Assembly: GCF_024300645.1 (NCBI RefSeq) | Contig: NZ_CP101291.1 | Location: 2,418,001-2,482,000 of the forward strand | Direction of reading: 5' to 3' | Length of the DNA stretch: 64,000 nucleotides | Source: Alteromonas sp. LMIT006 | GTDB lineage: Bacteria; Pseudomonadota; Gammaproteobacteria; Enterobacterales; Alteromonadaceae | In this document: one piece after another, positions 50,449-58,004 of the stretch | How the letters are laid out: the number at the start of each line of letters is the position of its first letter | Numbering within the stretch: the stretch's first letter is position 1 | The notes under the pieces: model-generated | What the model was told of the DNA's origin: nothing | Databases searched by the model: none | What the model saw: only the letters and a program-made list of their open reading frames with translations | Made by a program: the position numbers and the translations under genes

Positions 50449-50898
50449 TTATGCAGAGAATTGAGTGTTGTGTTGCTTAAGCCAAGCAACAACATCTTCT
50501 TCTGGGGTAAACGTTTCCATTGAATCTAACTCTAACATTGGCGTAATTTCTTCGCCTTGCAGTTGGGCAAATAGCTCAGCAAATTGTTTGCCGGCACCAC
50601 AGTAAGATTCACAATAAGAGCTATCACCTAAGGCAGCGATTGCGTATTTTTTGCCTTGTAATGAAGGTAAATCGGCTTGAACATCTGCAAAGAATAACTC
50701 TAAATTCGGTGGTACATCTCCCATACCTGTGGTTGAGGTGATGACCAAAAAGGCTGCATCTTCCTTGAATAAATCAATATCTGGATCGGTATGAACATTA
50801 ACCTGATGCCCTGCCGAGATTAAGAATTGTTCTGCGTGTTCTGCAACATTTTGAGCATTCCCGTATACTGAACCTACAATAATTTCAATTTGTGCCAT
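50449..50898 (-). CDS. yqcA: YqcA-type flavodoxin
   Basis: 149 residues of flavodoxin fold. The FMN phosphate loop is 'GSVYGNAQNVAEHAE' near residue 9, 'TSTTGMGDVPPNLELFF' is the second FMN loop and 'ALGDSSYCESYCGAGKQFAEL' the third. It is an electron-transfer protein of unknown partner. It overlaps truC upstream by 14 bases, the same yqcA/truC pairing seen in E. coli, which favours yqcA over mioC. Confidence 0.88.
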   Translation of the reverse strand: MAQIEIIVGSVYGNAQNVAEHAEQFLISAGHQVNVHTDPDIDLFKEDAAFLVITSTTGMGDVPPNLELFFADVQADLPSLQGKKYAIAALGDSSYCESYCGAGKQFAELFAQLQGEEITPMLELDSMETFTPEEDVVAWLKQHNTQFSA

Positions 50899-51628
50899 GA
50901 TGAATCATTTCTCCAACTTCATATATAGTCAATTTGTCCACAACCGCTTTTAAGTCCAATGGCTTTGGCGCAGTAATCGTCAAAGGCGAATCAGTAATTG
51001 GGTGAACAAATTGTAATTCGTGATGATGCAATGCCAAACGATGTAGCCCAAAATGGGCTCGCATAAAGGCATTTTGTTTACCGTCGCCGATCGTCGTGTC
51101 ACCGACAATAGGATGATTTATATGAGCGCAATGACGACGTATTTGATGTTTACGTCCTGTCTTGGGAAAACAACGAATCAGACTAAAACGCGCCTGCTGA
51201 TACCTTCCAACTGGTTGTGGCACAAGATAATGTTGTAAGCACTCCACTCGTGTAAGAGCCTCTTGCGCTGGTTTGTCGGTATGAGCCTGTCTATCTGATA
51301 TCTTATCGAGTTTTTCTTTTAACGCATAGTCGATTTCACAATCACTCGCCCATCCACGGACTATTGCTGTATACGCTTTTTGCCAACTGTGTTGTTCAAT
51401 TTGCGCACTCAGTAACCGCGCCATGTTAGAACTCAGAGCAAATACCAAGATCCCAGATGTTGGCTTATCGAGTCGATGCACTGGAAACACGTGTTGTCCG
51501 ATTTGATCTCTTACCATCTGCATCGCAAACTCCGTCTCGTGTTTATCAATCGTACTTCGATGAACGAGTAAACCACTGGGTTTGTTTATGGCGACCAAAG
51601 CCTCATCTTGAAAAAGTATATCGAGCAT
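50885..51628 (-). CDS. truC: TruC, tRNA pseudouridine-65 synthase
   Basis: 247 residues from the ATG giving 'MLDILFQDEALVAINKPSGLLVHRS' (in parts), with GGA six bases upstream; an earlier in-frame ATG adds 45 unrelated residues. RluA-family motif with catalytic Asp: 'VHRLDKPTSGILVFALS', then 'RCFPKTGRKHQIRRHCAHINHPIVGD' (parts). It makes pseudouridine at position 65 of tRNA-Ile and tRNA-Asp. It pairs with yqcA and diverges from the DUF3549 gene. Confidence 0.92.
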   Translation of the reverse strand: MLDILFQDEALVAINKPSGLLVHRSTIDKHETEFAMQMVRDQIGQHVFPVHRLDKPTSGILVFALSSNMARLLSAQIEQHSWQKAYTAIVRGWASDCEIDYALKEKLDKISDRQAHTDKPAQEALTRVECLQHYLVPQPVGRYQQARFSLIRCFPKTGRKHQIRRHCAHINHPIVGDTTIGDGKQNAFMRAHFGLHRLALHHHELQFVHPITDSPLTITAPKPLDLKAVVDKLTIYEVGEMIHHGTN

Positions 51629-51689
51629 GAAATTCCAACGGATCTGTTTATAATGTCCACCATCAAAACAAACAGTGTACGTTAAGGCT

Positions 51690-52721
51690 ATGCAAGATAC
51701 ACCAGAATCGACTATTAATTCAATCAGTGAGTTTTTACACGCTGCTGGCACACAGTTTCGCATCGTTGATATGGGACGTGGATACCGCGAACTATCCGCT
51801 CAAACATTTGTTGATATCGAGTATCAAAAGCAGCCTGTCCCCTTTCCTAGACAACAGCATATGTGGTTTGGCTGTATTTTTTGGCAGTCTGGCCAGCATT
51901 TCATTTGGTTCATTAAGCTTCCATTAGATGAGCGAGGTTTGCTAAATCAAGCCGCTCGCAATTCGTTTTTAGAAAAAGTCATCCAAGCGCTTGGCGCACA
52001 GTTACAAAACACGGTCCAACAAAACGGGCAACTTGGTGACAATCCCTTTACCTTTACTCCTAATCAGAAGCAGCTCGCAGATTTTCATGCTTTCGCAAAA
52101 AAAATCTTAATTCAACCCGCCAGTCCTTATTTGGCTCCTTGTATAGATTACATACAATCTCCAAGCACTCAAGATTGGCAGACTCTCCCTGTACAAGGTT
52201 TGGCTGAAATCGCCAGTCGTTGTAATGAAGGCAATATTCAAGTTCATTTACTCAATAATTGGTCAGTGATGCCAAGAGCTGTCACCATATCTTTGCTCGA
52301 AAGTTTTGAACATTATGCGATAAACAAACCATTGGCAGTGCACATCAAAAAAGAAATCGAAGTACTGGTCAAATCGAATCAGATTGATTTTGGTCTTCTT
52401 GCTAGTTATTTACGTGCGTTGAGTCAAGCTGACATTGGCATTCAAACTGAGACTGTACGTTTCATCTGTAATCAAGCCGATGTGCCATCTGAATTATTAC
52501 TCGTAATTGCGGCTCGGAACTTTGCAGCACTGCAAGATACGGCTGTATTACATCGTTTTATACCCCATTTGCTGTCGTATGATGATGACTTTGTGATGGG
52601 GTTGTACCAAGATCTAGTGCAGTTACCTCAGACCCGCATGCATTTGTTGTCATTGATTCACGATACCCGGGACACAACCGGTTTATCACAGCGTATCAAA
52701 CAGATTACCACCGCGTCATGA
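51690..52721 (+). CDS. DUF3549 family protein
   Basis: 343 residues from ATG 51690; a GTG five codons earlier (51675) is possible but has no ribosome-binding site. The family is known from Vibrio, Shewanella and Alteromonas; its function is unknown. Visible: 'MWFGCIFWQSGQHFIWFIKLPLDERGLL' (in parts), a helical middle and C-terminal half resembling HEAT-like repeats, and no signal peptide or membrane helix, so it is cytoplasmic. Its stop overlaps the next gene (ATGA), so the two work together or share translation. Confidence 0.75.
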   Translation: MQDTPESTINSISEFLHAAGTQFRIVDMGRGYRELSAQTFVDIEYQKQPVPFPRQQHMWFGCIFWQSGQHFIWFIKLPLDERGLLNQAARNSFLEKVIQALGAQLQNTVQQNGQLGDNPFTFTPNQKQLADFHAFAKKILIQPASPYLAPCIDYIQSPSTQDWQTLPVQGLAEIASRCNEGNIQVHLLNNWSVMPRAVTISLLESFEHYAINKPLAVHIKKEIEVLVKSNQIDFGLLASYLRALSQADIGIQTETVRFICNQADVPSELLLVIAARNFAALQDTAVLHRFIPHLLSYDDDFVMGLYQDLVQLPQTRMHLLSLIHDTRDTTGLSQRIKQITTAS

Positions 52722-53017
52722 CACTTTTAGACATATTGGTTTCGGTATCACTCATGTGCCTTGCGATTGGCTTTTGGCGGATCCGAGCTAATGCAGAGAT
52801 AGCAAGAACTGTGGCTCAGCAATATTGCAAAAAACACGAACTGATATTTGTCAGTATTCATCGCCATAACATTCATCTGCTAGGTCAGCGCAGCGGTGAA
52901 ATTGATTACCTGATGAGTTTTACTACGGCACCGGATGTGGCTTATGAAGGGGTCATAACCATAAAAAAGCAACGCTTGATACGTATAGATTTACCGGTTT
53001 TTAGAGAGCCAGATTAA
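52718..53017 (+). CDS. DUF3301 family small membrane protein
   Basis: 99 residues. One N-terminal membrane segment ('LLDILVSVSLMCLAIGFWRI'), then a soluble part with 'AQQYCKKHELIFVSIHRHNIHLL' (in parts) and 'FTTAPDVAYEGVITIKKQRLIRIDLP' (parts). The DUF3301 family has no assigned function; it is a usual neighbour of DUF3549, truC and yqcA in this group. The four-base overlap indicates coupled translation. A terminator on the minus strand of csrB follows directly. Confidence 0.75.
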   Translation: MTLLDILVSVSLMCLAIGFWRIRANAEIARTVAQQYCKKHELIFVSIHRHNIHLLGQRSGEIDYLMSFTTAPDVAYEGVITIKKQRLIRIDLPVFREPD

Positions 53018-53020
53018 TTT

Positions 53021-53058
53021 AATACAAAAGAAAAGGCGATAGCCTATTGACTATCGCC
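53021..53058 (-). terminator. Terminator of the CsrB-like RNA (bidirectional stem)
   Basis: GGCGATAG (53035-53042) pairs with CTATCGCC (53051-53058); on the minus strand TTTTCTTTTGTATT follows. On the plus strand only TCATTGTTT follows, so it may also weakly end the DUF3549-DUF3301 transcript. Confidence 0.85.
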
Positions 53059-53384
53059 TCATTGTTTCGAGCTTCCTTCTCAGCGTTCCATTGCTACAAT
53101 AATCATCCCGATTAACATCCGTATACGCCCCTTTCCTTCTAATCCAACTCATCCTAAGCTGGCCGCGAATCCATCCACGGGTCCCTTTCCATGTCTCCAG
53201 TACGAAGTTGCACATCCATACTGCAACCTGCTTCCTTCCTGAAGTTATTCCTGTTTGGTTGTTGCCAACCAATGTCCCTTTCCTTTATTCCTGATATCGC
53301 TTGATATCCTATCAAGCTTTGGCAAATGCCATGTCCCTTAACTCAACAATGTCTTCCTGACTGGGTCATTGTTTCCGTGTGACA
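53024..53384 (-). ncRNA. csrB: CsrB-type regulatory RNA that sequesters CsrA
   Basis: A minus-strand transcript of about 360 nt is predicted, close to the 369 nt of E. coli CsrB. I count 23 GGA motifs, many as AGGA or AAGGGACA, several in hairpin loops: CTTGATA-GGA-TATCAAG (53300-53316) and GTTGCA/TGCAAC with GGA in the loop (53207-53227). Repeated GGA hairpins are the mark of CsrB/RsmB RNAs, which titrate CsrA from mRNAs for carbon storage, motility and biofilm. It has a promoter, a strong terminator and a GacA/UvrY-type site near -181. In E. coli csrB lies between yqcC and syd, next to yqcA-truC; here yqcA-truC and syd flank it too. A 73-codon frame inside is not protein-like. Confidence 0.9.
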
Positions 53385-53390
53385 AGGTAA

Positions 53391-53418
53391 ATATTACGCA
53401 ACTAAACCATGATTTCAG
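53391..53418 (-). promoter_or_regulatory. Predicted csrB promoter
   Basis: Minus strand: CTGAAA (53413-53418) and TAATAT (53391-53396), 16 bases apart; transcription start near 53384. Confidence 0.5.
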
Positions 53419-53545
53419 GAAAATATTTTTTAATTATGCTGTGTATAAACACGATTCTTTTGTTGTTACCTCAACTAAAGTACCGTAATAACAGGGGTTT
53501 GGGATAAACTGTGAGAAGACTGTGGATTAGAATAGCTATCAATGG

Positions 53546-53585
53546 CTTACATTATTGTAAGATATTTCTTACGGACAAAGTAAGC
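53546..53585 (-). promoter_or_regulatory. GacA/UvrY (response regulator) upstream activating site of csrB
   Basis: TGTAAG (53556-53561), six bases, CTTACG (53568-53573) matches the GacA consensus TGTAAG-N6-CTTACA at all but the last base. CTTACA (53546-53551) and GTAAG (53580-53584) add two more half sites. The centre is about 181 bases upstream of the predicted csrB start, like the distant UvrY site known in E. coli csrB. Confidence 0.7.
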
Positions 53586-53601: not shown

Positions 53602-54246
53602 CTAAATCGACTTATACATTATTTGACCCGAAATGTTTTCAGTGGATAATTTTTTGATAAAGGTAAAACCTCCAGAGTTAAAAAACGATAGGCATTTGTC
53701 TAATGTAACAAACACTCCAACTCCATTTGAACCTTCTGTAGAAGATACAATTTCATTGATACCTGCCAACAAAATATGACCAAGACCTTGATCTTGATGT
53801 TGCGGATGCACCCCGATGAACGAAATCATGTGACAGTCCTGAGTGGGTAATTCAGCCCTCACCAGTTTCTCTTTGTGTAGTAACTGTTGCGTGCCAAGAA
53901 AACCCGCTGTCATCAACATGCGTAAGCGCCAATGCCAATAACGACCATGACCAAAGTCAGGATTTGGAGTAAGTAAACACGTGACAGCAACTAAAGAACC
54001 ATCCCGGTATACGCCTAACATTGGTTGTTTAGCTTCCCAAAACGCATTGAGTTCTTCGCGGATAGCGCTGCGCAAGCGCATCTCATAGCCCTCCTCCTCT
54101 ACTTTAAAAATCTTGGAGAACAATGGATCATCAAAGTAAGCATTGTACAGAATAGACGCAGCGACCTTTAGGTCAACTGCGCTTAGGTGTTTAATTTCAA
54201 AATCTATATCGTTTTCTGAATAGTCTACTGCTGCTGAATACTCCAT
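53602..54246 (-). CDS. GNAT-family N-acetyltransferase
   Basis: 214 residues. The acetyl-CoA-binding motif A lies near residues 140-165 ('HMISFIGVHPQHQDQGLGHILL', with Q-x-x-G-x-G reading QDQGLG); the preceding strand, 'MLGVYRDGSLVAVTCLL', is typical, and 'CLSFFNSGGFTFIKKL' is the C-terminal motif B. Substrate unknown. It ends 29 bases from the csrB upstream site, so transcription from this gene runs towards csrB. The family is broad; nothing in the sequence tells protein, antibiotic or small-molecule acetylation apart. Confidence 0.82.
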   Translation of the reverse strand: MEYSAAVDYSENDIDFEIKHLSAVDLKVAASILYNAYFDDPLFSKIFKVEEEGYEMRLRSAIREELNAFWEAKQPMLGVYRDGSLVAVTCLLTPNPDFGHGRYWHWRLRMLMTAGFLGTQQLLHKEKLVRAELPTQDCHMISFIGVHPQHQDQGLGHILLAGINEIVSSTEGSNGVGVFVTLDKCLSFFNSGGFTFIKKLSTENISGQIMYKSI

Positions 54247-54877: not shown

Positions 54878-55174
54878 ATGAGTGAAATTACCAAAATATG
54901 TCAGTCCCTTACGGATAAAGGGATCACGCCAACCGTTGGTCTAATCAAAGCGAAATTAACGCAAAAAACACCACTACCTGACATCATCTCAGGGTTAAAA
55001 GCCTTCCAAGCTAACCAACCTCATGAACCTGCATCAATAAAAGAGCCAAGTCTAGCTGATAGAGTGATGGAACTAGAAAAGCGTTGTGCAAACCAGCAAG
55101 AGCATATTCAAACATTACAAGAGCAAGTCGAATCCTTGCGTTTTATGGTTAAGCAACTGTCAAATAACCAATAA
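54878..55174 (+). CDS. Small protein with KfrA-like N-terminus and coiled coil
   Basis: 98 residues. The first 45 ('ICQSLTDKGITPTVGLIKAKL' then 'PLPDIISGLKAF') follow the pattern of the KfrA N-terminal DNA-binding region (G-x-x-PT-x-x-x-I, then a second helix). The rest is a heptad-rich coiled coil (about 58-95, 'ADRVMELEKRCANQQEHI'). A small DNA-binding dimer is likely but is inference only. Its 3' end overlaps the syd 3' end by 26 bases on the opposite strand. Ribosome-binding site weak (AGGGAAA about eleven bases before). Confidence 0.6.
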   Translation: MSEITKICQSLTDKGITPTVGLIKAKLTQKTPLPDIISGLKAFQANQPHEPASIKEPSLADRVMELEKRCANQQEHIQTLQEQVESLRFMVKQLSNNQ

Positions 55175-55679
55175 ACTCTTGCAAGCTATTCGCGACGATT
55201 TGATGTGGCGTTCGACCGACGTATTCAAAGACGACTTCACCAGATGACGGTATGATGGAAATCAATTCTTCGTCATCATCTGTTACCCCAATAAAAATGG
55301 TATCGGGTTGTTTGAGTCTTCTTTTCATTAAGACGTGACCAATAATATTCTCTTGTAAGCGCGCAAAGTCTTCTTCATTCCATACTTGCAGTAGAGTCAT
55401 CACTCTACCATCAAAATTCACGGAGAGATGATCGGCATAATAAGCACAGTAAAAGCATTCTATGGTATCGGGAATTTGGATCTCTAAAGCGGTGCCGAGT
55501 TGCTTTAGGTTAGCAGATGCATCGCTCTGACGAGGGACTGGTTGCCACTTAACCCAAAGATCGTTTGTAATATTATCTGGGTCAACTAAACAAGGAGATG
55601 GCCACTGCGCGTCAAACTCCACCATGCATTCGTGCTGAGATTGATACTGTTTGATGAAATCTTGCCAGAAAACATTCAT
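55149..55679 (-). CDS. syd: Syd, SecY-interacting protein
   Basis: 176 residues. Alignment by eye with E. coli Syd is good in 'WPSPCLVD', 'VKWQPVPRQ', 'TLLQVWNEEDFARLQENIIGHVLMKRRLKQPDTIFIG' (in parts) and 'SGEVVFEYVGRTPHQIVANSLQEF' (parts). Syd binds the cytosolic face of SecY and checks the SecYEG complex. In E. coli it lies next to csrB and queF, as here, which supports the call. It is divergent from queF with a 36-base gap. Confidence 0.93.
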   Translation of the reverse strand: MNVFWQDFIKQYQSQHECMVEFDAQWPSPCLVDPDNITNDLWVKWQPVPRQSDASANLKQLGTALEIQIPDTIECFYCAYYADHLSVNFDGRVMTLLQVWNEEDFARLQENIIGHVLMKRRLKQPDTIFIGVTDDDEELISIIPSSGEVVFEYVGRTPHQIVANSLQEFIGYLTVA

Positions 55680-55715
55680 AATAATGTTTAAAATAAAGAA
55701 TTACTTACAAAAACT

Positions 55716-56567
55716 ATGACAGATAAATCACTTTATGCCAATTCACAAAGTATTAAGTCTTTGACTTTGGGCAATGCCGTAACGTATCAATCCCAGTATT
55801 CGCCTGAACTTTTACAGCCTGTGCCACGATTACTCAATCGTCAGCAAATCGGTATAAATGAACAAAATTTGCCCTTTACTGGCGAAGATATCTGGAACGG
55901 GTACGAATTATCATGGCTCAACCCCAAAGGACTACCACAAGTCGCTGTAATGCGTTGTTTTGTGCCGGTGACGAGTCCTAATATTATTGAATCCAAGTCA
56001 TTTAAACTTTACTTAAACAGCCTCAACCAAACCGTATTTAGTGATCATAGTTCGTTGTCTGCAACGTTACAAAAGGACTTAAGCCAATGTGCTGGCGAGT
56101 GCGTAAAAGTAGACATCATTCGTCCTGAGCAATTTTATAATGAGCAATTCATCATAACGGATTGGCAATGTATAGATGAACAAGACATTCAGATTAAAGA
56201 GTACCAACCCAACCCTTCATTATTAAAAAATTCCAGTCATGAAGTTGTCACACGACAGCTCTATTCTAACTTACTGAAGTCGAACTGTTTGGTAACCAAC
56301 CAACCTGATTGGGCGACGGTATTTATCAAATATACTGGTCCCAAAATATGCTCTGAATCCCTGTTGAGGTATATAGTCTCATTTCGTGAACACAGCGAGT
56401 TTCACGAACAATGCGTTGAACGTATCTTTACCGACATTTTGCAGCAAACAGGGGTTTCTCAGTTAACCGTCTATGCAAGATACACCAGACGTGGTGGCTT
56501 GGATATTAATCCGTTTCGCAGTAACTTTGAAACGTGTTACGGAGATTGGAGACTGCTCAGACAGTGA
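55716..56567 (+). CDS. queF: QueF, NADPH-dependent 7-cyano-7-deazaguanine reductase
   Basis: 283 residues, the bimodular E. coli type. The substrate motif 'NIIESKSFKLYLNSLNQT' (ESKSFKL) lies in the N-terminal half; the nucleophilic cysteine is in 'NCLVTNQPDWATVFIKY' of the C-terminal half, and 'EHSEFHEQCVERIFTDI' follows. It reduces preQ0 to preQ1 for queuosine in tRNA. Ribosome-binding site is weak. It sits next to syd, as in E. coli. ppnN follows after 72 bases with its own promoter. Confidence 0.95.
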   Translation: MTDKSLYANSQSIKSLTLGNAVTYQSQYSPELLQPVPRLLNRQQIGINEQNLPFTGEDIWNGYELSWLNPKGLPQVAVMRCFVPVTSPNIIESKSFKLYLNSLNQTVFSDHSSLSATLQKDLSQCAGECVKVDIIRPEQFYNEQFIITDWQCIDEQDIQIKEYQPNPSLLKNSSHEVVTRQLYSNLLKSNCLVTNQPDWATVFIKYTGPKICSESLLRYIVSFREHSEFHEQCVERIFTDILQQTGVSQLTVYARYTRRGGLDINPFRSNFETCYGDWRLLRQ

Positions 56568-56578
56568 GCGTTTGGGTC

Positions 56579-56608
56579 TTGACCTTTTTGAAGATAGACC
56601 GATATATA
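56579..56608 (+). promoter_or_regulatory. Predicted ppnN promoter
   Basis: TTGACC (56579-56584) and TATATA (56603-56608), 18 bases apart, 30 bases before the ppnN start. Confidence 0.5.
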
Positions 56609-56639
56609 AAATATACGAACAACAGCAAGGACAAGCGTT

Positions 56640-58004
56640 TTGACCAAAAATCCAGTACAACTTAGCCCTGTCGGTTGGATGAGCCAATTATCACAAAATG
56701 AAATGGCGCTCATTACCGACCATACCAATACCAAACATTATCAATTGTTCCGTAACTGTGTTTTAGCAGTGCTCAACAGCGGCGCCGAAACCGATGATAT
56801 GACCAGTATGCTCGACAAGCATCAATCATTTGCCATTGATCTCATTCGCCGTGAACGCGGAGTCAAAATTGAATTACTCAACCCTCCGCAAGAAGTGTTT
56901 GTCGACGGTAAATTAATTTCTGGTGTGCATGAACATGTATTTGCCGTGATGCGAGATTTGTTATACGTCGAGAGTATTTACCCGAATCACAGCACGGAAT
57001 CATGTAGCGGTTCGGCTGCAACCGATATGGTTTTTGATATGCTGCGCCATGCGAATGCACTTGAATATAACGATGGCATCAACACGGTAGTGTGTTGGGG
57101 TGGGCATTCAATTGGTCACACCGAGTATCGATATACCAAAGAGGTAGGCTATCAACTTGGTCTCAGAGGATTCGATATCTGCACAGGATGTGGACCCGGC
57201 GCAATGAAAGGGCCAATGAAAGGCGCCGCGATTGGACACGCCAAACAACGGATCAAAAATGGACGTTATGTGGGATTAACTGAGCCGAGTATTATTGCTG
57301 CTGAACCACCTAACGCCATTGTCAACAAACTTGTGATTCTACCAGATATTGAAAAACGCTTAGAAGCCTTTGTGCGTTTTGGTCATGCCATTGTGGTGTT
57401 CCCGGGTGGGGTCGGCACCGCAGAAGAGTTATTGTATTTATTAGGTATCTTGCTGCATTCTAAAAACCAATCGCAACAAGTGCCTTTGATCTTAACTGGG
57501 CCAAAAGAAACTTCAGATTATTTTGAAGCGATTAATGCCTTTGTAGCGGCGACATTAGGTATAGAAGCCACACAAAAATATAGAATTATCGTCGATGATG
57601 CAAAGGCGGTTGCACAACATATCAACAACCAACGTGAAGTCATTCGCAATCAACGTCTTCAGAACGGAGACGCGTTTAGTTTTAATTGGTCACTGCAAAT
57701 TGAGCCTGAATTTCAAATTCCTTTCGTTCCGACACATGAAAACATGGCCAATTTACACCTACATCGAGACCAGTCTTCCGCTGATTTGGCTGCAAATTTA
57801 CGCAAGGTGTTCTCAGGAATTGTCGCAGGTAACATCAAAGCTGATACCATCGCTCAAATTGCCGAAAAAGGAAAGTTCAAATTAACTGGCGACCCAGAAC
57901 TTATCACCATGGTCGAGCGGCTATTAGAACAGTTTATTGCTCAAGGTAGGATGAAGCTGCCCGGCAAGACTTATGAGCCGTGTTATGAAATAGTCAAAAA
58001 TTAA
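56640..58004 (+). CDS. ppnN: PpnN, pyrimidine/purine nucleotide 5'-monophosphate nucleosidase
   Basis: 454 residues, same length as E. coli PpnN (YgdH) and alignable throughout by eye: 'LFRNCVLAVLNSG', 'RRERGVKIELLNPPQEVFVDG' (in parts), 'CTGCGPGAMKGPMKGAAIGHA' (parts) and the LOG-family nucleotide motif 'FPGGVGTAEELLYLLGIL'. It cleaves GMP and other monophosphates to base and ribose 5-phosphate and is activated by (p)ppGpp in E. coli. The start is TTG with AAGGA eight bases upstream; no in-frame ATG fits better. Confidence 0.93.
   Translation: MTKNPVQLSPVGWMSQLSQNEMALITDHTNTKHYQLFRNCVLAVLNSGAETDDMTSMLDKHQSFAIDLIRRERGVKIELLNPPQEVFVDGKLISGVHEHVFAVMRDLLYVESIYPNHSTESCSGSAATDMVFDMLRHANALEYNDGINTVVCWGGHSIGHTEYRYTKEVGYQLGLRGFDICTGCGPGAMKGPMKGAAIGHAKQRIKNGRYVGLTEPSIIAAEPPNAIVNKLVILPDIEKRLEAFVRFGHAIVVFPGGVGTAEELLYLLGILLHSKNQSQQVPLILTGPKETSDYFEAINAFVAATLGIEATQKYRIIVDDAKAVAQHINNQREVIRNQRLQNGDAFSFNWSLQIEPEFQIPFVPTHENMANLHLHRDQSSADLAANLRKVFSGIVAGNIKADTIAQIAEKGKFKLTGDPELITMVERLLEQFIAQGRMKLPGKTYEPCYEIVKN

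Follow-up and report, generated by a model that had tools for sequence, protein, structure and literature searches.

The 64-kb stretch of DNA analyzed here (hereafter the window) very probably carries, at 53025-53383 on the minus strand, the gene of a CsrB-type small RNA; judging from the sequence, we put the probability of this reading at about 0.95. CsrB is a small RNA that sequesters the regulatory protein CsrA and is a master switch between lifestyles. The CsrB class, its mechanism and its occurrence in this order of bacteria are already known, and the Glaciecola gene described here is a new, unannotated member of the class. Its position, its switch site, its shape and its relatives leave the CsrB identity in little doubt. 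The features of the locus are the following.

50449-51628, minus strand: yqcA-truC, flanking genes in common with E. coli csrB.
51675-53017, plus strand: DUF3549 and DUF3301 genes (Pfam PF12069 and PF11743), convergent with csrB.
53025-53383, minus strand: putative csrB-type sRNA gene of ~359 nt with 23 GGA motifs, assigned from GGA counts against shuffles, fold z-score, RF00018 score and synteny.
53025-53060, minus strand: strong predicted intrinsic terminator, a 12-pair stem (53060-53033) followed by the T-run TTTTCTTTTG.
53025-53190, minus strand: 3' domain conserved in sequence across Alteromonadaceae; scores 155 bits with model R1, one copy in the genome.
53069-53081, minus strand: near-invariant hairpin GAG-AAGGAAG-CUC; 98.7% of cells paired, scant variation.
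53100-53114, minus strand: covarying hairpin 3, UAAUC-GGGAU-GAUUA; compensatory changes at 4 of 5 pairs, pairing in 76% of cells.
53144-53162, minus strand: GGA-loop hairpin 2, covarying, CCAGCUU-AGGAU-GAGUUGG; compensatory changes at 5 of 6 pairs, pairing in 93.2% of cells, GGA unpaired probability 1.00.
53164-53179, minus strand: GGA-loop hairpin 1, covarying, in the 3' domain; compensatory changes at all 5 pairs, pairing in 90.7% of cells (n = 52).
53299-53317, minus strand: GGA-loop hairpin of the 5' half, GCTTGATA-GGA-TATCAAGC (listed also as GCUUGAUA-GGA-UAUCAAGC); GGA unpaired probability 0.97.
53391-53396, minus strand: candidate -10 element TAATAT, 7 nt before the predicted start; the same or a similar hexamer stands at the same place in many relatives.
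53413-53418, minus strand: weak -35-like CTGAAA with a 16-nt spacer, called from sequence only.
53543-53551, minus strand: possible extra half-site TGTAAGCCA (TGTAAG), 4 nt downstream of the box; similar words occur in many relatives.
53556-53573, minus strand: UvrY/GacA-type box CGTAAGAAATATCTTACA, 1 mismatch to TGTAAG-N6-CTTACA, centred at -182/-181 from G53383.
53602-54246, minus strand: GNAT-family gene (PF00583), directly upstream on the same strand; the conserved neighbour used to find relatives.
55149-58004, mixed strands: syd (minus; PF07348), queF (plus) and ppnN (plus), the other flank, in E. coli order; followed in relatives by tblastn.

The minus strand of 53024-53384 contains 23 GGA motifs. 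When this stretch was shuffled with dinucleotides preserved, the mean was 12.7 (sd 2.4, maximum 21, n = 2000); mononucleotide shuffles gave a mean of 10.2 (maximum 19). In GGA density it ranks first among all 361-nt stretches of the window, both strands included, the runner-up having 12. The predicted fold of the minus-strand RNA reaches -101.6 kcal/mol compared with a shuffle mean of -84.7 (z -3.49), and none of 100 shuffles was as good. The gene lies in a gap of 584 nt between the stop codons of the DUF3301 (53017) and GNAT (53602) genes. Inside this gap there is no credible protein gene, and the sole listed ORF, a 73-aa frame opening with TTG at 53051-53272 on the minus strand, is not conserved. 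We place the 3' end of the sRNA in the terminator T-run and its 5' end at G53383, a start predicted from the spacing of the -10 element and from a conserved GTCAC..GGAA motif common to relatives.

The host genome consists of one contig of 2.53 Mb. Among named relatives the nearest are Glaciecola MAGs (GNAT identity 98% and 93%), with Opacimonas viscosa and Glaciecola sp. HTCC2999 further off. We picked 12 relatives by DNA similarity and examined them with their flanks. Each of the 12 has, in the gap adjoining GNAT, a same-strand GGA-dense stretch (18-30 motifs per 361 nt, with at most 9 on the opposite strand); DUF3301 borders this gap too in 11 of them. An alignment of GNAT then gave 80 named Alteromonadaceae loci, most of them with a GGA-dense gap, and a profile of the 160-nt 3' domain picks up almost all of these named loci. 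At four loci (L073, L076, L088 and L094) the GGA-dense stretch lies further downstream, behind inserted genes. At five others, from Alteromonas and related genera (L087, L090, L095, L096 and L112), no GGA density was found near GNAT within the flanks analyzed, which may reflect either an insertion reaching past these flanks or loss of the RNA. Family-wide, an R1-type RNA is present in 37 of 119 genomes and 17 of 52 genera; the remaining genomes presumably carry CsrB types too diverged for model R1, and Pf1 of Pseudoalteromonas is, by the literature, one such. In the host genome R1 finds a single strong copy at 155 bits, the next match scoring 15.7. Two weak R1 matches (15.7 and 13.1 bits) were considered as a second CsrB/CsrC copy and rejected, neither being GGA-dense.

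Thermodynamic folding of the window RNA alone leaves the GGAs at 53309, 53291, 53251, 53172, 53154 and 53076 more than 90% unpaired. The 3' domains of 52 loci were aligned and five hairpins measured for covariation, with shuffles and with partners slid by 1-3 columns as controls. Standard pairs were found in 90.3% of the cells of the 52 sequences compared with 32-46% when partners were slid, and cells with compensatory changes on both sides numbered 137 compared with 48.5 +/- 8.4 in shuffles and 20-29 with slid partners. For hairpins 1-3 the observed values were reached by 0 of 500 shuffles, and in 16 of the 21 pairs a double change occurs once or more. Strong covariation marks three of the five hairpins and two are almost invariant, and each has a GGA in its loop. 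The structure under test came from the same 52 sequences, which is a bias in its favour; the margin over the controls is wide. The RNAalifold consensus agrees with hairpins 1 and 2, and the terminator stem and T-run are retained in relatives despite altered stem sequence. Several of these elements had been pointed out in an earlier note on this DNA. Its 23 minus-strand GGA motifs were recounted as 23, its protein-free gap of about 580 bases was recovered, and its terminator at 53021-53058 corresponds to the 12-pair stem and T-run. The GGA-loop hairpin that it placed at 53300-53316 is real but spans 53299-53317.

The -10 and -35 hexamers match the consensus at 8 of 12 positions, which is under the scan threshold, and the promoter described earlier is thus present as a pair of candidate elements but weaker than was implied. 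Hexamers this weak are commonplace where a promoter depends on an activator. The earlier note did not mention the UvrY/GacA box at 53556-53573. If up to 2 mismatches are allowed, the window contains two matches to the box consensus, of which this is the better, and chance alone would give 2.6. The match by itself is therefore not significant, and the weight of the box comes from its position and conservation. Of the 80 named loci, 72 have an upstream box with 2 mismatches or fewer (12 perfect, 51 with one mismatch). In the 63 of these 72 loci with a recognised start motif GTC..GGA, the distance from box centre to motif has a median of 178.5 nt (5-95% range 174.6-180.5), the motif having been sought 160-215 nt downstream of the box only; a wider search, 150-700 nt, gave the same distance in most loci. 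By the same count the box centre of E. coli MG1655 csrB lies at about -182, and published binding mapping centres the UvrY inverted repeat of E. coli csrB at -183/-182 (PMC4682653). A partly conserved TGTAGGAGA, to which the half-site found here is similar, follows 5 bp downstream of the inverted repeat in E. coli and Salmonella csrB (PMC4682653).

Across Alteromonadaceae the RNA measures from ~250 to 690 nt and holds 13-50 GGAs, the GGA count tracking the length (r 0.83). Two values were left out of this range, 1019 at L084 (mis-assigned box) and 199 at L098 (contig end). Relatives appear to lengthen the RNA by tandem GGA-hairpin repeats, which are plain in some genomes; such a mode of growth would be more unusual than the presence of the gene itself. 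Opacimonas csrB contains 3.3 tandem copies of a 75-nt unit, Paraglaciecola arctica csrB 3.7 copies of a 92-nt unit, and the L026 csrB sequence repeats a 26-nt unit. Among L036:6956-7200, L082:6924-7263, L042:6860-6951 and L026, the units that carry GGA hairpins are of 75, 92, 38 and 26 nt.

At Rfam gathering thresholds the 64-kb window gave no CsrB match and one hit only, a t44 RNA. This t44 RNA (RF00127; 45807-45925, minus strand, 66.6 bits) lies just upstream of a methionine aminopeptidase gene on the opposite strand. With permissive thresholds applied to the gap alone, RF00018 (CsrB) ranks first among 4227 families (53264-53025, minus strand, 22.1 bits, E 4e-4), and its alignment covers positions 1-356 of the model end to end, on the correct strand and with the terminators aligned. 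The gathering score of RF00018 is 71 bits, so that by Rfam's own rule the RNA is not a member of RF00018, though the tested features of the functional class were found. The other Rfam matches in the gap, SQ2397 (E 0.27) and ctRNA_p42d (E 0.89), are at chance level. A gathering-level RF00018 hit was also obtained for 0 of 11 related named loci holding the same gene; since all 11 relatives fail too, the shortfall lies with the model in this lineage rather than with the sequence. The Rfam search suggested in the earlier note thus returns CsrB as the best-matching family, and "no CsrB model hit" is true only at the strict cut-off. The same scores bear out its statement that the RNA is too diverged for simple similarity and easily missed. 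Its wording "unannotated-type" is fair as regards Rfam but not as regards the literature, where Aln1a-c (PMC5864184) and Pf1 (PMC9927453) are known. Its central assignment, an RNA of the CsrB/RsmB class, is backed by the best match to RF00018, synteny in 12 of 12 relatives, covariation, the UvrY/GacA box and the presence of csrA and uvrY in the genome.

Because the Rfam threshold is passed by none of 12 Alteromonadaceae csrB loci, annotations likely overlook csrB in a major group of marine copiotrophs. Surveys of sRNA reads based on Rfam likely overlook Alteromonadaceae CsrB as well, as in a study where sRNA reads were found by Rfam comparison and almost every CsrB read was attributed to Vibrio (PMC3840354). 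The 52-sequence alignment and its model would mend the gap for part of the family (37 of the 119 genomes sampled). What is filled is a useful annotation gap and not a new kind of system, and a specialist would find it unsurprising.

The gene order around csrB in E. coli MG1655 is yqcA-truC-yqcC-csrB-syd-queF-ppnN, and the flanks of the present gene agree with it, as the earlier note had seen for yqcA-truC and syd-queF. Like CsrB of E. coli and Salmonella, the RNA is encoded between truC and syd-queF-ppnN, has a UvrY inverted repeat at about -182 and ends in a terminator; E. coli CsrB has 369 nt and 22 GGA motifs compared with ~359 nt and 23 here. In contrast to the enterobacterial RNAs its primary sequence is mostly unrelated (RF00018 22.1 bits vs 71). 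Unlike in E. coli, extra genes separate csrB from its neighbours, namely DUF3549 and DUF3301 on the truC side and GNAT, DUF3192 and a 98-aa gene on the syd side, and a second, CsrC-like copy was not found with the family model. A profile of the family 5' end gave no significant match to E. coli csrB (best E 0.73), so the case for descent from the same gene is made by locus, box and architecture and not by primary sequence. Judged by the locus and the layout of the promoter, the gene is very likely an orthologue of E. coli csrB. The 98-aa gene (54878-55174, plus strand) lies between DUF3192 and syd, where yqcC might be expected; it has only a weak Pfam match, KfrA_N, below the cut-off, and is conserved near the locus in most relatives.

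RNAs of this kind have been described in marine bacteria. Aln1a-c of Alteromonas macleodii Te101, which belongs to the same family as the present host, are GGA-rich RNAs of the CsrA-sponge type that come from one intergenic region, begin at mapped primary TSSs and are the most abundant primary transcripts of the cell (PMC5864184). Their expression speaks indirectly for a stable transcript from the present gene. The Aln1 region is probably the same locus as the csrB described here, given that csrA and csrB are 123-170 kb apart in three genomes of a genus that is apparently Alteromonas (one of these distances assumes a circular contig) and that the Te101 locus tags, 04650 for Aln1 and 05290 for csrA (PMC5864184), imply ~128 genes between them. 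Spurious ORFs within long csrB genes could explain why the 'intergenic' region of Aln1 is 404 bp. Aln1a-c differ in being three RNAs from three starts, whereas the Glaciecola gene is shorter and has one upstream box and one terminator. Pf1 of Pseudoalteromonas fuliginea has 21 GGA motifs and a GacA box CGTGAGACATCTCTTACA and acts on CsrA in E. coli (PMC9927453). It resembles the present RNA in being GGA-rich, in its GacA box and in its little similarity to E. coli CsrB; its authors' sequence matches were confined to Pseudoalteromonas (PMC9927453), and the likeness to the present family is one of description. In Shewanella oneidensis, CsrB1 and CsrB2 are GGA-rich, have an upstream TGTAAG-N6-CTTACA box and are under BarA/UvrY (PMC3171408); there are two copies there vs one here, and this likeness too is one of description.

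Other explanations of the stretch were weighed against the CsrB reading. The GGA-rich stretch does contain an open frame of 73 codons and might be taken to encode a small protein, but one- and two-base indels throughout the stretch in relatives break this frame and refute the idea; the frame also begins with TTG, the stretch ranges from ~250 to 690 nt across relatives and its stems covary as RNA, all of which leaves a coding function with next to no credence. The RNA might instead be the 3' UTR of the GNAT gene, a CsrA-binding RNA released by processing and lacking a promoter of its own, since in every relative examined GNAT is the gene immediately upstream on the same strand and no minus-strand terminator was found between GNAT and the RNA gene. 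We hold such an origin to be very improbable: the UvrY box and -10 element are both intergenic and keep a fixed spacing, the distance of the box from GNAT is widely variable whereas that from the start is not, and the Aln1 RNAs, which probably come from this locus, have mapped primary TSSs. Some read-through from GNAT is possible as a partial second source of the RNA.

A further alternative accepts a CsrB-like sponge for CsrA but gives it an independent origin, or sees it as a replacement at the locus, which would make it an analogue and not an orthologue of E. coli csrB. The 5' module without a significant match to E. coli csrB and the low RF00018 score fit this view, and the authors of the Pf1 study raised de novo origin for Pseudoalteromonas (PMC9927453). 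However, the gene neighbourhood is the same as in E. coli, the UvrY box is the same and stands at the same distance, and the RF00018 alignment, weak as it is, runs end to end with the terminator aligned. It is unlikely that neighbourhood, box and alignment would all result from independent origin, and we give an analogue a small chance compared with a true csrB orthologue.

From the motif density, the hairpin covariation, the terminator, the box and its spacing, the synteny and the presence of csrA and uvrY, we infer the following mechanism for csrB in this bacterium. Phosphorylated UvrY would bind, most likely, the inverted repeat ~180 bp upstream and activate the weak sigma-70 promoter. An untranslated RNA of ~359 nt would then be made, ending at the intrinsic terminator. 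Its GGA motifs, several of them in the loops of covarying hairpins, would bind CsrA dimers and draw CsrA off its mRNA targets. The minus strand of 53025-53383 would in this way be the only csrB gene that this Glaciecola-type bacterium has, probably in direct descent from the gene known in E. coli.

The genome has one csrA (a single PF02599 hit, 88.8 bits), with a core that is by eye near-identical to E. coli CsrA and a leader that carries GGA words. UvrY, at C1:1838085, is 55% identical to E. coli UvrY and keeps the region of the phospho-acceptor Asp (LMD), and uvrY is directly upstream of uvrC, as in E. coli. A CsrD orthologue was sought and not assigned because the matches are weak (20-23% identity) and cover E. 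coli CsrD only in part. No full-length BarA was matched in the host genome, the best hybrid kinases lacking either the HPt part or a matching N-terminus. With the BarA model NF008318, a kinase-receiver-HPt protein was found in the genus-mates G001-G005 (505-547 bits) and not in the host genome (G000) or its closest relatives. In G002, G004 and G005 a BarA-like hybrid kinase of ~926-953 aa lies between parC and a gene of 237-271 aa, and the parC locus of the host genome (C1:337503-338336; L151:2926-3861) has only a 311-aa receiver-HPt protein, as if the sensor and kinase parts had been deleted. The parC-side kinase is BarA-like and a candidate BarA only, and its reduction is a lead and not a result.

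The boxes of the three closest genomes have 1, 2 and 4 mismatches. Among 41 distinct boxes of the family, those of G000 and G007 score next to lowest, and in G009 (L019/L035) only a half-site, TGTAAGACATTTGCCATA, is left of the UvrY box, its position ~179 nt ahead of the RNA start being unchanged. The three genomes belong to one clade, and so possibly reflect one event. It is conceivable, though we think it rather unlikely, that in this Glaciecola subclade the Csr switch has been uncoupled from its sensor, the BarA-like kinase at parC being reduced to receiver and phosphotransfer domains and the box scores lying at the bottom of the family while csrB, csrA and uvrY are kept, and that family-wide the capacity to bind CsrA is adjusted as tandem GGA-hairpin units are gained or lost, from 13 to ~50 GGAs. 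The surroundings of 12 other box-like sites with 1 mismatch in the genome hold no GGA-dense stretch (at most 10 motifs per 300 nt), and hence no further UvrY-driven sponge was found there. Box-like sites with 1 mismatch, none of them adjoined by a GGA-rich RNA, occur at C1:2023997-2024014, C1:2024319-2024336 and C1:1575279-1575296; two of these are 322 bp apart and one is ~3 kb from csrA.
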